Shown here: piece by piece, positions 794 to 61,691 of the stretch
Layout: the number at the start of each line of letters is the position of its first letter
Position numbering within the stretch: position 1 is the first letter of the stretch
NCBI RefSeq assembly: GCF_022818495.1
Contig: NZ_CP089291.1
Span: forward strand, 3,923,501-3,987,500
From: Fodinisporobacter ferrooxydans
GTDB lineage: Bacteria > Bacillota > Bacilli > Tumebacillales > MYW30-H2
Length of the DNA stretch: 64,000 bases
Direction: 5' to 3'
Made by a program: the position numbers and the translations under genes
The notes under the pieces: generated by a model
The model's input: only the letters and a program-made list of their open reading frames with translations
What the model was told of the DNA's origin: nothing
Database searches by the model: none

Positions 794-1543
794 TTAACCC
801 AACTGTTGACGAATCGTATGCAAAATTTTCTTCTCCAGTCTCGATACTTGTACCTGGGAGATTCCAAGCATCTCAGCAACTTCCGCCTGGGTTTTGTCTT
901 TAAAAAAGCGCATATAAATAATCAGACGTTCCCGATCAGGCAATCTCGACAACGCATCATGCAAGCTTAGCCGATCAAACCAACGCTCTTGCCCTTCATC
1001 CGCAATTTGATCCATCAAGTAAATGGGATCCCCGTCATTTTCAAACACCGGCTCGTGAATGGATGCAGGAGCGCGCAATGCTTCTTGCGCAAACACTACA
1101 TCTGTAGGATCCATGTTCAACTCTGCCGCCACTTCATTGATATGTGGCTGCCTGCCCAATTTTTTTGCCAACTCATCACGTGTTTTGCGAATTTGTTTCG
1201 CTTGCTCCTTTAAGGATCGGCTGACTTTCACCGTACTGTCATCCCGCAAAAACCGCTGAATTTCACCGATAATCATGGGAACCGCATAGGTTGAAAATTT
1301 TACTTCATAGGAAAGGTCAAATTTATCGATCGACTTCATAAGTCCAATACAGCCAATTTGAAACAAATCGTCCGCTTCATACCCTCTGTTCAAAAATCGC
1401 TGCACAACAGACCAAACCAATCGCTGGTTGGATATGACAAGCGCATCTCTGGCGCCGTCGTCACCGGCCTGACTTTGCCGTATCAACTGGCGAATCTCTT
1501 CATCCGTGAATTTATATTGGGTAGCAGGAATTTGCCGCTCCAT
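794..1543 (-). CDS. sigF: RNA polymerase sporulation sigma factor SigF
   Basis: SigF is the first forespore-specific sigma factor, held inactive by SpoIIAB until septation. The 249-residue protein has region 2 with the core-binding and -10 recognition segment (DLFQIGCIGLMKSIDKFD, about residues 60-77, and FSTYAVPMIIGEIQRFLRDD), region 3, and a region 4 helix-turn-helix (TQAEVAEMLGISQVQVSRLE) near residue 218. The length matches the family (about 255). It starts 4 bases after the spoIIAB stop, so translation is probably coupled, and it shares the sigma-H promoter in front of spoIIAA. Confidence 0.97.
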   Translation of the reverse strand: MERQIPATQYKFTDEEIRQLIRQSQAGDDGARDALVISNQRLVWSVVQRFLNRGYEADDLFQIGCIGLMKSIDKFDLSYEVKFSTYAVPMIIGEIQRFLRDDSTVKVSRSLKEQAKQIRKTRDELAKKLGRQPHINEVAAELNMDPTDVVFAQEALRAPASIHEPVFENDGDPIYLMDQIADEGQERWFDRLSLHDALSRLPDRERLIIYMRFFKDKTQAEVAEMLGISQVQVSRLEKKILHTIRQQLG

Positions 1544-1547
1544 AGTC

Positions 1548-1988
1548 TTAGTGCTCCACTGACGCAGTTTTTAGTAGTTTCGTCAGCCGGATGACGGTTC
1601 CCTTGCCTTCCGCAGATTCCACTTCAAGGGAATCCATGAAACTTTCCATGATGGTAAAGCCCATCCCTGAACGTTCCAACTCCGGTTTCGATGTATACAA
1701 AGGCTGACGGGCAGTTTCCACATCGGAAATCCCTCGCCCTTCGTCACGGACTTCAATTGTCACCAAAGAATGTTCAAAGGAACAGGATATGGTGATCACA
1801 CCTTCCTGATTTTCATACCCGTGAATAATTGCATTCGTGACAGCTTCCGAAACAACCGTCTTGATTTCTGTCAATTCATCCAATGTTGGATCCATTTGCG
1901 CCAAAAAAGCAGCCACTGCTACTCTGGCAAATGATTCATTGGGAGACTTGCTTGCAAATTGCAGCGTCATGAAATTATGTTGACTCAT
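1548..1988 (-). CDS. spoIIAB: Anti-sigma F factor and serine kinase SpoIIAB
   Basis: SpoIIAB binds and blocks SigF and phosphorylates the anti-anti-sigma factor SpoIIAA. The 146-residue protein is a single GHKL ATPase fold: N-box [13 protein letters not shown] (about residues 43-55), G1 box [10 protein letters not shown], and the lid with G2-like [12 protein letters not shown] near residue 107. Its ATG overlaps the spoIIAA stop (ATGA), so the two are translationally coupled, and it is followed after 4 bases by sigF. All catalytic boxes are intact. Confidence 0.97.
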
Positions 1989-2338
1989 ATGGCACCTCCC
2001 ACTGCTTGCAATGCAAGATCTTCTGTATCATAAAATTGAATGATTTTAAGCAGACCGGCCATTTCAAATAAACGGCGAATTTGTGGATCGACATTTGTAA
2101 TCGCCATTCGTCCGCCGCCTTGCGTCACTCGTTTATAACGCCCGAGAATGACGCCAAGTCCGGAACTGTCCATAAATGTCAAGCCGCTTAAATTTAAAAT
2201 CATATGCTGGCACTCTCGGCCGCCCAGTTCTTGATCGACTCGGTTTCGTACCAACTCTGCCGTGTGATGATCCAATTCGCCACTCATGTGTACAACCAAA
2301 ATGTCCCCGAATGTTTGCACAGTAACATCAAAGCTCAC
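1985..2338 (-). CDS. spoIIAA: Anti-sigma F factor antagonist SpoIIAA
   Basis: SpoIIAA is the STAS-domain anti-anti-sigma factor that frees SigF when unphosphorylated. The protein contains the phosphorylation loop [15 protein letters not shown]; the serine after MD is the family phospho-acceptor. The GTG start is chosen because CAGGAGGGATAGCA lies directly before it and gives 117 residues, the length of the B. subtilis protein; a start nine codons upstream lacks a ribosome binding site and lies over this Shine-Dalgarno sequence. First gene of the spoIIA operon. Confidence 0.96.
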
Positions 2339-2374
2339 TGCTATCCCTCCTGGCTCTCCGCTCAATATTGCTCA

Positions 2375-56320: not shown

Positions 56321-56358
56321 GTAGAGTACTTTTTGGAAAGATTCTTTGGCGCCGCCTT

Positions 56359-56394
56359 AAAGCCGTTTTCCGCTGGGGCGGCTTTGCTTTTTAT
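56359..56394 (+). terminator. Terminator after the CAT-type permease
   Basis: AAAGCCG and CGGCTTT pair across 13 bases, with alternative GCCGCC/GGCGGC pairing, followed by GCTTTTTAT. Confidence 0.75.
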
Positions 56395-56411: not shown

Positions 56412-57983
56412 TTAATTTAAACCAAATTGTTCAAGAGCCTGCTGCAGTGAACCTAATGTCACGACTTTCGCCGGCATTTCAATTCCCAATTCGATCATCG
56501 TATTGACAATTTCCGGCCGGATTCCAGTGATAATCGCTTTGCAGCCAAGCAATGTAATGCCGTCAATGATCCGGAAAAGATGGCTGACAACAGCCGTATC
56601 CATAAATGGCACACCGGAAAGGTCGATAATGACACGGGAAAGATTCAAGGAAGATATACGATGCAATACCCGTTCTTGTATCCGTTTGGCACGATAGGTA
56701 TCCAATGTTCCCACAAGCGGCAAGACTGCGATTTTGGCAGACATGGGTATGAGCGGAACGGTCAATTCTTCAATAATCTCCTGTTGCGATTGCAACACTT
56801 CATCCTTATACTTCGTATAATTGGCTGTAAAATGATGGACAAATGCATCGATCGTATAATTGGTCTTTCTCTCAAGTTCAAAAAATTCTTCTGTTGTTAG
56901 CTCATGGTTTTTATGAAAATTATATAAAAAGTCCCAATACACTTTTCGAAACGCTTGCAGCCATTCTAATTTTAACGAAAGAGACAATCCGGATTTGGCC
57001 CACTCCACCCCATGTTCTTGCGATAATAAAACCAGCACATGATATTGCCCCTCGTCAAGAGCTGTCACCAGACTGTCCATTGTTTGCAGCAGATCGATCG
57101 ATTGGATTTGATTTTCCTTTACCATTCGAAACGTCTGTTCTGCCTCTTGCATCAACGCATGCAGAAATGCCTGATGATTGACTTTATAGAAATCAAGAAA
57201 TCGGTCTGACTCTGTCTGTACAAGCTCCAATTTCGTCACTCCCAGCCTTTTATCTTTGACAATCGGGAATTTGATAAGAAACGTGGTTCCGACGCCTACT
57301 TCACTTTCTACGTCGATGCTGGCGCCATGTTGATAGATAGCAGAAAACACCTGTGCCAACCCCATGCCTGTACCTTCCGTCTTCGTCGTAAAAAATGGAG
57401 TGCCAAGCAGGCGCATCTTTTCATCCGGTATGCCAACACCTGTATCTCGTATCATTAAGTACAGAAATTTGCCTACAACATATTGGCGAATTTCTACTTC
57501 TCCCTTTTCCGGTATTGCTTCAAAGGAATTTTTTAACAAATTAAAAAATGCCTTCTTTAATTGATTCCGTTTCCCGTAAATCGTCACGTCCGGATTTTCA
57601 AACGTCTGTTTCACAGAAACCGTATATAGCTTGTCTTGAAACAAGTACAAAATCGATTCGATTTCCGAATATAAACAAAACTCTCGAAAAGGTTCCGTGT
57701 CCTGGTCCGGTTTGGATACTTGCAATAAATTTTGCAACGTATCGATCGCCCGATCCAGCTCTGCAAGAGCAATCTCCGTATAGGTGTGCGGACTCTCCTT
57801 ATGCAGCAGTTGTAAAAAACCTTTGACAGATGTAAGTGGATTGCGCACTTCATGGGCAATGCCTGCAGATAATTGTCCGATTGCTGCCAGGCGGTTTAAC
57901 GTGTTATTTTGCGCTTCTTGACTGGATTCTTTTTGTTGCAATAATTCTCGTTCCTCTCTCAGAAGTTTCAACAAGTACTTCAT
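56412..57983 (-). CDS. Histidine kinase fused to an RsbR-like STAS module
   Basis: The 523-residue soluble protein has a HisKA domain with His44 in GIAHEVRNPLTSVKGFL, a HATPase domain (N-box FFNLLKNSFEA, G1 DTGVGIP, G2 GTGMGLAQ), a helical region of about 150 residues like the RsbR N-terminal domain, and a C-terminal STAS domain (about 425-523) with the phospho-site DLSGVPFMDTAVVSHL. No transmembrane or PAS sensor precedes the kinase. The gene overlaps the upstream RsbT-like gene by 80 bases in another frame. The STAS domain suggests the partner is that RsbT-like kinase, as in stressosomes. Confidence 0.85.
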   Translation of the reverse strand: MKYLLKLLREERELLQQKESSQEAQNNTLNRLAAIGQLSAGIAHEVRNPLTSVKGFLQLLHKESPHTYTEIALAELDRAIDTLQNLLQVSKPDQDTEPFREFCLYSEIESILYLFQDKLYTVSVKQTFENPDVTIYGKRNQLKKAFFNLLKNSFEAIPEKGEVEIRQYVVGKFLYLMIRDTGVGIPDEKMRLLGTPFFTTKTEGTGMGLAQVFSAIYQHGASIDVESEVGVGTTFLIKFPIVKDKRLGVTKLELVQTESDRFLDFYKVNHQAFLHALMQEAEQTFRMVKENQIQSIDLLQTMDSLVTALDEGQYHVLVLLSQEHGVEWAKSGLSLSLKLEWLQAFRKVYWDFLYNFHKNHELTTEEFFELERKTNYTIDAFVHHFTANYTKYKDEVLQSQQEIIEELTVPLIPMSAKIAVLPLVGTLDTYRAKRIQERVLHRISSLNLSRVIIDLSGVPFMDTAVVSHLFRIIDGITLLGCKAIITGIRPEIVNTMIELGIEMPAKVVTLGSLQQALEQFGLN

Positions 57984-58305
57984 CCATTAATCGATGCACT
58001 CCAGCCAACCCTTTGCCCAAGCCACGTCTTGAAATAGAAGTTTTTCTCATACATGAGCTTTCGGCGTTCTGCAATCCGGGTCCGCTGTCAGCAGCCTCAA
58101 TCAAAATTTCTGAGCCGATCCGCTCACATTGAATATACCCTTTGCCATCTGCATGATCTAAAATATTGTGAGCTAATTCGGAAACGCTAACAAGAACTTT
58201 TTGTCTTTCCATATCCGAAGGCTGCAATTCTTGTAACAGAGTGCGAATTTTTGATAATACATAAAAAATATCATTTTCTGATCGAATAAAAATCTGCTGA
58301 GTCAT
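57904..58305 (-). CDS. RsbT-like anti-sigma/serine kinase
   Basis: A 133-residue GHKL ATPase with N-box VSVSELAHNILDHADG, G1 AADSGPGLQN and a lid SRRGLGKGLAGVHRLMDEV. It matches RsbT, the switch kinase that phosphorylates RsbR/RsbS STAS proteins, better than SpoIIAB. The ATG MTQQIFIRS follows AAGGAA by nine bases. It overlaps the kinase-STAS gene by 80 bases, so the two must be co-transcribed. No rsbS, rsbU or sigB gene is in the window. Confidence 0.82.
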   Translation of the reverse strand: MTQQIFIRSENDIFYVLSKIRTLLQELQPSDMERQKVLVSVSELAHNILDHADGKGYIQCERIGSEILIEAADSGPGLQNAESSCMRKTSISRRGLGKGLAGVHRLMDEVLVETSERGTRIIATKRIQSRSAK

Positions 58306-58393
58306 TTCTAGCATTTCCTTTATATTTACATGTGAAATTACAGGTTTTATAATAAATTCTATTTAATACTGTATCAAATCCCCTGGAAAATAT

Positions 58394-58438
58394 CTATCAT
58401 TTCGATTGCTATCATTTCGATTGCTATCATTTCGATTG
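58394..58438 (+). repeat. Three tandem 15-bp repeats
   Basis: Three perfect copies of CTATCATTTCGATTG lie about 90 bases upstream of the RsbT-like gene, in the 269-base gap before pepF. They could be a regulator site or simple replication slippage. Confidence 0.9.
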
Positions 58439-60380: not shown

Positions 60381-60591
60381 GAAATCTCCTCCAACTCGAA
60401 AATGTAAAAATCGTCCTTTTGCGTACGAAACGAGGTTGACTTGCCAATCGCGCGTTCCTTTCGCTGCTGGAAACGCACAGAAACGAATCGTTTTTAAAAG
60501 GGGTTGCTCCACATCAACTTCATTATAGTGGACTTCCAGAAAATGTTCAAAAAACCAGACAGCTTATTTCCCATTTCACGACAAAATTTCT

Positions 60592-60620
60592 GCATGAATT
60601 TTCTATTGCAACACATACTA
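60592..60620 (+). promoter_or_regulatory. Sigma-G-like promoter of the repeat protein
   Basis: GCATG, 17 bases, CATACTA. The sigma-G consensus is GHATR and CATNHTA with 17-18 bases between. It lies 52 bases ahead of the chosen TTG start. Recognised by eye, so a chance match is possible. Confidence 0.55.
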
Positions 60621-60671
60621 TATCTGGTTTCCGATATGACTTTTATACATATTAAGAAGGAGATGAAACTT

Positions 60672-61691
60672 TTGCAACAAATGTTCAGCAATCAGCAAAA
60701 TCAATATGGTTACAGTGGATCTACGCTCTCACAGTTTGGAACAAACCCGCAAACCGTTCAGCAACATATCCAGCAGGACTTGGGGCAAGGGTCTATGGGG
60801 GGCAATTATTCGATTATGCACACAGGCGCGACCAATCCGCAAGCAGTTCGCCAGCAGATCGCGCAAGACCTGGGACAAAGTCAATATGCCGGGCATTATA
60901 TGAATGCATATGCACAAAGCGGCCAATATCAACCCGTACAAAATCAGGGATACTACAACCAGGGAGTATTTCATCAAGTCATGCAGGCATCCCCGACACA
61001 GGCACAATACGTACGAGAGCAAATCAACCAAGACATCCGGCAAGGCAGCATCCCGCCATATGCTCAACATCCTGTACAAACATATGGGTATGGTGGAACG
61101 CTGTCGCAATTCGGCACAGATCCGCAGGTGGTTCGTCAACATATCCAAGAGGATCTAAACAATTACCAAAATCAGCAAATGAGAAGCATGGGCATGCCAT
61201 CCATGGGTGGCATGCAGGGCTATGGCTATGGCAGTACTCTTGGCCAATTTGGCACAAATCCGCAAGTGGTTCGCCAACAGATTCAAAGTGATGTAAGCGG
61301 CGGTCGTTCCCAATGGAGCAATATGGGCATGCCATCCGTGGGCGGCATGCAGGGCTACGGTAGCACCCTTGGCCAATTTGCCACAAACCCGCAAGTGGTC
61401 CGTCAACAGATTCAAAGTGACTTAACCGGCAATCCTGCACAAATGGGGGCAATGGGCATGCCATCAACGGGCGGCATGCAAGGCTACGGCAGCACACTCA
61501 GCCAATTTGGCACAGACCCGCAGGTGGTTCGCCAGCACATTCAAAATGATCTCACCCAAGGCCAAGGAACCATGACATCCGCACAAGCAGGTGCGATGCA
61601 TGGCCAATCCAGCACTCTCGGTCAATTTGGTACAAACCCGCAAATCGTTCAACAACATATTTCTCAAGACTTAGGGTATATGTATCAATAA
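60672..61691 (+). CDS. Gln/Gly-rich repeat protein, possibly gamma-SASP-like
   Basis: A 339-residue protein, rich in Gln, Gly, Met and Tyr and without Cys, built from eight units of about 20 residues with consensus STLGQFGTNPQVVRQQIQSDL (positions about 17, 50, 105, 142, 188, 231, 275, 313). In the second half these sit in longer units headed by MGMPSxGGMQGYG. Gamma-type small acid-soluble spore proteins (SspE) contain QFGTEF...VRKQNQ units, so the repeats here look related, though four times longer in total and without an obvious GPR cleavage site. The TTG start follows AAGGAG. A sigma-G-like promoter and a strong terminator bracket it. Confidence 0.7.
   Translation: MQQMFSNQQNQYGYSGSTLSQFGTNPQTVQQHIQQDLGQGSMGGNYSIMHTGATNPQAVRQQIAQDLGQSQYAGHYMNAYAQSGQYQPVQNQGYYNQGVFHQVMQASPTQAQYVREQINQDIRQGSIPPYAQHPVQTYGYGGTLSQFGTDPQVVRQHIQEDLNNYQNQQMRSMGMPSMGGMQGYGYGSTLGQFGTNPQVVRQQIQSDVSGGRSQWSNMGMPSVGGMQGYGSTLGQFATNPQVVRQQIQSDLTGNPAQMGAMGMPSTGGMQGYGSTLSQFGTDPQVVRQHIQNDLTQGQGTMTSAQAGAMHGQSSTLGQFGTNPQIVQQHISQDLGYMYQ

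Follow-up and report, generated by a model that had tools for sequence, protein, structure and literature searches.

A histidine kinase fused to an RsbR homologue and paired with an RsbT-like kinase in Bacilli: a probable sporulation phosphorelay kinase under RsbT control

Links between stressosomes and two-component systems have been found in trans in the open-access literature. In V. vulnificus-type loci, rsbRSTX genes are followed by two-component genes, the histidine kinase and RsbR are encoded separately, RsbS and RsbX are present, and RsbR carries a heme-binding globin sensor (PMC9237108). The sporulation kinases KinA–KinE are described as having their sensor regions, in many cases PAS, at the N-terminus. 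The specificity residues of the verified Spo0 kinases are TAGFQL (KinA), TVGFQL (KinB), TSGFQI (KinC), TGGFQL (KinD) and TAGFQL (KinE), and sporulation kinases are otherwise not markedly distinct (PMC6136694). A non-heme-globin sensor domain occurs in the Spo0F-linked BA2291-type kinase (PMC5862856). We found no description of a histidine kinase (HK)–RsbR fusion in the open-access literature, and early surveys of RsbRST modules may mention one.

Such a fusion is encoded in the window analyzed here (the whole stretch of 64,000 nucleotides from Fodinisporobacter ferrooxydans). On the minus strand, an RsbT-like gene (57904..58314), predicted to encode a 136-aa GHKL Ser/Thr switch kinase, lies upstream of the fusion gene, whose longest open reading frame (56412..57983; 523 aa) has 84 distinct full-length homologues. 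The two longest reading frames share 80 nt, the overlap reported in the initial annotation. When about 20 homologous pairs were compared, however, the kinase start fell in one alignment column, occupied by TTG (in most homologues) or ATG, located 11–40 nt ahead of the rsbT stop and preceded by a Shine–Dalgarno-like sequence, although the coding of rsbT itself could account for part of this conservation. One homologous locus (L101) has an in-frame stop immediately 5′ of the TTG in this column. The true start here is probably the corresponding TTG (57936..57938, minus strand), which has the Shine–Dalgarno-like GAGAGGA ahead of it; the real overlap would thus be about 35 nt (35 nt from TTG 57938), and the 80-nt value holds for the longest reading frames only. 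After the rsbT stop, no in-frame start codon is available before the conserved HisKA region is reached. Some overlap is therefore unavoidable, and the kinase does not start late enough to remove it.

A terminator-like hairpin with a 12-bp stem, scored on the plus strand, lies 3′ of the fusion gene (56358..56386); on the minus strand it was judged by eye only, with few T residues after it. The neighbors of the pair are a BcaP-like permease gene and pepF, and no two-component gene is adjacent, making this an orphan kinase. Between pepF and rsbT, upstream of rsbT, a 15-nt unit, CTATCATTTCGATTG, is present in three perfect copies in tandem (58394–58438); this repeat could hold regulatory sites.

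The domain search proposed with the initial annotation returned HisKA, HATPase_c and STAS in the large protein and HATPase_c_2 in the small one. All domains of the fusion protein are encoded on the minus strand. HisKA (residues 36–94; 57702..57878; PF00512, 6.6e-13) contains the phospho-acceptor H44 and is followed by the HATPase_c catalytic domain (residues 138–241; 57261..57572; PF02518, 3.2e-20), whose N, G1, F and G2 boxes are kept across the fusion family. At the C-terminal end is an RsbR-type STAS domain (residues 417–500; 56484..56735; PF01740, 1.6e-15), whose best PDB relatives are the RsbR chains of solved stressosomes (E about 2e-27 to 3e-27; 2e-27 for RsbR in 7b0u).

In the window protein itself, Pfam assigned no family to the middle helical region (residues 246–402; 56778..57248), which RsbRD_N touches in relatives. 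Modeled alone with AlphaFold2, this domain gave a pLDDT of 87 and a pTM of 0.83, and the model matched 3pmd (pXO1-118; Z 15.4), 3pmc (pXO2-61; Z 14.7), RsbR-N (2bnl; Z 10.8) and Moorella MtR-N (3zta; Z 10.8), although helical folds inflate Z and the Foldseek E values were weak (0.08 for the sporulation-inhibitor sensor domains). In addition, stand-alone RsbR proteins of 276–299 aa align across the entire C-terminal half. The helical fold, the RsbRD_N hits in relatives, the stand-alone RsbR alignments and the RsbR-type STAS domain together indicate that a whole RsbR has been placed behind a histidine kinase core. They support the reading of the C-terminal half as a complete RsbR homologue, with a predicted non-heme-globin domain (of moderate weight, the fold being helical) before a STAS domain that has both equivalents of the RsbT-target Thr residues. 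The initial annotation, which had described an HK core running into an RsbR-type helical region and STAS domain, is borne out by the Pfam, PDB and fold comparisons, and its reservation that the C-terminal part might not be an RsbR homologue does not apply. The full-length model has a pTM of 0.43, a low global confidence for domain packing.

The small kinase, which matches HATPase_c_2 (1.9e-9), has the conserved motifs SELAHN (N-box), DSGPG and GLGKGL. Its best NCBIfam matches suggested SpoIIAB/RsbW, an assignment that we rejected because the protein grouped with RsbT, apart from RsbW/SpoIIAB, with a support of 100 in a quickly built 50-row tree in which long branches are present. The earlier identification of the overlapping gene as an RsbT-like serine kinase is thus upheld. 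It resembles RsbT switch kinases in this grouping and not in the activation of an RsbU through RsbU_N, for which no counterpart was found.

The 4.86-Mb genome encodes only three STAS proteins: SpoIIAA (gene at window 2365–1985), the fusion protein and an RsbV-like protein. None of them is RsbS, and the only RsbR-type STAS is that of the fusion protein; the full RsbR, RsbS and RsbT set of a canonical stressosome is thus not encoded, and the fused RsbR has no RsbS with which to work. RsbU_N gave no match above the cut-off genome-wide, a profile that exceeded its cut-off in just 1 out of 14 control genomes. SigB was likewise absent genome-wide, the best match being SigF/SigG at less than half of the cut-off. 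The initial annotation had noted that no rsbS, rsbU or sigB lies beside the pair, and none is detectable elsewhere in the genome either.

Several other loci of this genome deserve mention. A spoIIAA-spoIIAB-sigF operon (window 794–2365, minus strand) marks the genome as that of a spore-former. At 2.23 Mb, PP2C, RsbW-like and RsbV-like genes stand in a row beside transposition-type genes (L179, 4741–6157); this is a separate small partner switch, in which the PP2C, a short frame of about 156 aa, is perhaps truncated. A 395-aa reading frame (window 60504–61691, plus strand) consists of degenerate repeats (..STLSQFGTNPQVVRQHIQ.DL..) with a DNA period of 129 nt and no confident Pfam family; we take its motif to be reminiscent of gamma-type small acid-soluble spore proteins.

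The phylogenetic survey of the pair that had been suggested showed recurrence over many genera. Among 398 genomes of the class, about 44 carried the fusion, and a named collection added more in Brevibacillus, Alicyclobacillus, Paenibacillus, Cohnella, Halalkalibacter, Alkalihalobacterium, Neobacillus, Heyndrickxia, Cytobacillus, Peribacillus and Bacillus methanolicus. After duplicate removal, rsbT was directly upstream in 34 out of the 84 distinct full-length proteins. The HisKA-HATPase-RsbR architecture is a conserved family of Bacilli, and since the domain order and the gene pair are repeated in tens of genomes, they are not due to chance.

Variants of the architecture were also observed. 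One subgroup has a longer N-terminus, which possibly contains a PAS-like region, although Pfam called no PAS in the extension. In G217 (L129, 4548–8106), the HK and RsbR portions lie 1.6 kb from each other, the gene having been split, probably by an insertion; rsbT is still upstream. In G386 (L119, 6571–6747), an rsbT remnant with an internal stop, an apparent recent loss, lies upstream of an HK–RsbR gene that keeps both Thr residues. G034 has a stand-alone RsbR of the same clade, flanked on the same strand by two paralogous genes encoding 260 and 231 aa (L049, 6511–9300). At three loci (L172, 4767–5975; L173, 4429–5592; L174, 4259–5401), an RsbRD_N-like (non-heme-globin) domain is N-terminal to the same type of HisKA-HATPase, a domain order the reverse of that in the fusion protein, and these kinases have no STAS.

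The STAS domain holds the evidence that connects the two genes. T429 (codon 56697..56699, minus strand) aligns with B. subtilis RsbRA T171, and T463 (codon 56595..56597, minus strand) with RsbRA T205, RsbS S59 and SpoIIAA S58 (residue numbering in part from PMC3944199). Were RsbT to phosphorylate these two residues, constraint on them would be expected only where rsbT exists. In rsbT-linked fusions, T429 was kept in 34 out of 34 and T463 in 33 out of 34, against 6 out of 49 for T429 in complete loci without a linked rsbT (Fisher 1.7e-17, a value uncorrected for the tree that overstates independence). Among the six exceptions, G004 and G142 have unlinked rsbT genes that branch within the clade of HK-linked RsbT, G122 encodes other RsbTs at other loci, G386 carries the rsbT remnant interrupted by a stop, and two Paenibacillus are known at the locus level.

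On the tree, T429 changes about three times and rsbT linkage six times, so independent losses are few; an independent-pairs test had just one or two informative pairs, none contrary, a number at which significance is out of reach. In place of this underpowered test, we scored the entropy gained without rsbT for each of the 505 alignment columns and repeated the analysis clade by clade. T429 and T463 ranked first and second of the 505 columns in loss of constraint. Their ranks were 1 and 2 in the big rsbT-less clade (35 rows), 1 and 2 in a Paenibacillus subclade (six rows), and 4 and 7 in a deep clade (four rows), compared with 75 and 168 in a control split within the rsbT-positive set. The next-ranked columns (K433, H468, F470, A464 and A432) flank the two residues, and the mean entropy change without rsbT was 0.05 for the kinase half versus 0.65 for STAS. 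That the STAS Thr residues lose their constraint wherever rsbT is absent supports the proposal, made in the initial annotation, that the RsbT-like kinase is the likely partner of the fusion protein. RsbT would presumably phosphorylate STAS at T429 and T463, and lineages without rsbT and both Thr residues appear to keep the kinase and globin but not the Ser/Thr input.

For the kinase half, the evidence leads to the Spo0F/Spo0A phosphorelay of sporulation, a connection absent from the initial annotation. By our own mapping of the table in PMC6136694, the six specificity residues lie at H+7, +8, +11, +12, +14 and +15, and in the fusion protein these positions (T51, S52, G55, F56, Q58 and L59, within 57702..57878, minus strand) read TSGFQL. 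All 83 out of 83 readable fusion members fit T[ASTV]GF[QE][LM], and 67 of the 83 have TAGFQL, as in KinA and KinE. Three other kinases of this genome differ (TVGYFM, AMGYEA and ATGHEA), and a fourth (L040) has the Spo0F-type signature. Among PDB kinases, sporulation kinase B comes closest (2.4e-32), and the nearest HK-only relatives are PAS-HisKA-HATPase proteins. This genome encodes Spo0A (6.5e-116) and a Spo0F candidate with 66% identity to B. subtilis Spo0F. Among the surveyed fusion genomes, spo0A is present in 43 out of 44, compared with 316 out of 398 overall; the one fusion genome without it is an assembly of 91% completeness. The protein thus combines an orphan kinase and Spo0F-type residues with an encoded Spo0A and Spo0F candidate, as a Spo0 phosphorelay kinase would. 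Spo0F is its putative phosphate acceptor; the specificity residues are a sequence signature, as distinct from an observed phosphotransfer.

In two genomes, spo0A lies upstream of the pair: it is the immediate neighbor of rsbT-HK in G053, and inserted genes separate the two in G293. These genomes are related and are the only two in which this was seen, and we rejected a general spo0A-neighbor link. The insertion in G293 includes a transposase-like pair (419- and 261-aa reading frames; L099, 2482–4523) between spo0A and rsbT.

We consider it probable that the locus encodes a Spo0-type phosphorelay kinase that is governed by the RsbR fused to it and by an RsbT of its own, with no RsbS involved. 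In this two-gene module, a complete RsbR would serve as the regulatory half of the orphan kinase, and RsbT would come from the upstream gene that overlaps the kinase gene. The globin domain would read a cytoplasmic signal, and RsbT would dock on STAS and phosphorylate T429 (primary) and T463 (secondary). The state of STAS would then set the balance between kinase and phosphatase activity in the HisKA-HATPase core, and this core would exchange phosphate with Spo0F and hence with Spo0A. The fused kinase would be the RsbT target in place of RsbS and RsbU. Comparative evidence argues strongly that RsbT acts on STAS, and the path from STAS to Spo0F is the most likely one given a published sequence signature and the genome content. 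Regulation by STAS phosphorylation is inferred and could be of either sign, and the ligand of the globin domain is putative. The domain order, the gene pair and the dependence of the Thr residues on rsbT also sustain the initial view that two-component and stressosome-type signaling are joined in one protein with its likely partner. To the broader statement, that this is a widespread RsbS-free two-gene stressosome derivative with direct phosphorylation of a sporulation histidine kinase by RsbT, so that a single protein unites Ser/Thr partner switching with His-Asp phosphorelay at sporulation entry, we give about even chances.

RsbT might instead be the output: held by the STAS half, it would be released to another RsbT target under the control of the kinase core or of the globin signal, and the HK output might form a second branch. 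The dependence of the Thr residues on rsbT fits this equally well, and RsbT release is the documented output of known stressosomes (PMC3944199 and PMC9237128). However, the genome has no detectable RsbU_N protein or SigB, and rsbT shares its operon with no further partner. An intact kinase with unchanged specificity residues is also retained in many lineages without rsbT and both Thr residues, which argues that the kinase output is what selection keeps; we regard RsbT as unlikely to be the output.

It is quite unlikely that the fused RsbR is a subunit plugging the kinase into a larger, stressosome-like STAS shell, alone or with the RsbS/RsbR of a sigB operon, with the kinase as the reader of that particle's state. 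In its favor, RsbR is kept as an entire unit, the genomes of some relatives have a canonical rsbRST operon (L169), and G002 has rsbR beside rsbT and the kinase. Yet RsbS is missing from this genome, as is any second RsbR-type STAS, and the lineages without an HK-linked rsbT lost the Thr positions, unlike RsbT substrates of a shared particle.

The kinase could also be Spo0-like in sequence but phosphorylate a different response regulator, so that RsbT regulation would be real and the output would not be sporulation. The specificity signature is degenerate, and the lack of other marked distinctions among sporulation kinases (PMC6136694) leaves room for this. We nevertheless hold it to be improbable, given the Spo0F-type residues in every readable member (shared in this genome by L040 and not by three other kinases), the lack of a response regulator gene adjoining the pair here, and the spo0A genes of the fusion genomes. 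An accidental fusion and neighborhood, with RsbT and the kinase functionally uncoupled, is extremely improbable: about half of the family has no linked rsbT, but the fusion and the pair are conserved over many genera with overlapping starts, and constraint is lost site-specifically without rsbT.

If RsbT control of a Spo0-type kinase is true, two stress pathways usually described as separate become connected, and a stress-sensing RsbR would be built into a kinase feeding Spo0A in Brevibacillus, Alicyclobacillus, Paenibacillus, Cohnella, Halalkalibacter and Bacillus methanolicus. The module would also offer a two-protein system for asking how STAS phosphorylation becomes a change in activity, a long-standing question for the 1.8-MDa stressosome, with the natural lineages without rsbT and both Thr residues as built-in controls.

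With the RsbR-RsbS-RsbT stressosome of B. subtilis and Listeria, the module shares an RsbR-type STAS with both phospho-Thr positions, a predicted non-heme-globin sensor and an adjacent RsbT-type kinase gene; it differs in having no RsbS, no RsbU/RsbV/RsbW/SigB output, and an RsbR fused behind an HK core. The V. vulnificus-type loci have in common with it an RST module proposed to control HisKA/REC proteins (PMC9237108), whereas here HK and RsbR form one protein and RsbT stands alone. Like KinA–KinE, the fusion protein is an orphan HisKA-HATPase kinase with T-x-GFQL residues, close to KinB among PDB kinases and to PAS-HisKA-HATPase proteins among HK-only relatives, but it has a C-terminal RsbR regulatory half plus RsbT. 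Its predicted sensor shares the non-heme-globin fold of the BA2291-type sporulation kinase and of the pXO1-118 and pXO2-61 sensor proteins (3pmd and 3pmc). In the BA2291-type kinase, we take this sensor to lie N-terminal to the kinase, as in L172–L174, with no STAS and no RsbT, whereas in the fusion protein it follows the kinase core and leads into a STAS domain with an RsbT-like partner.
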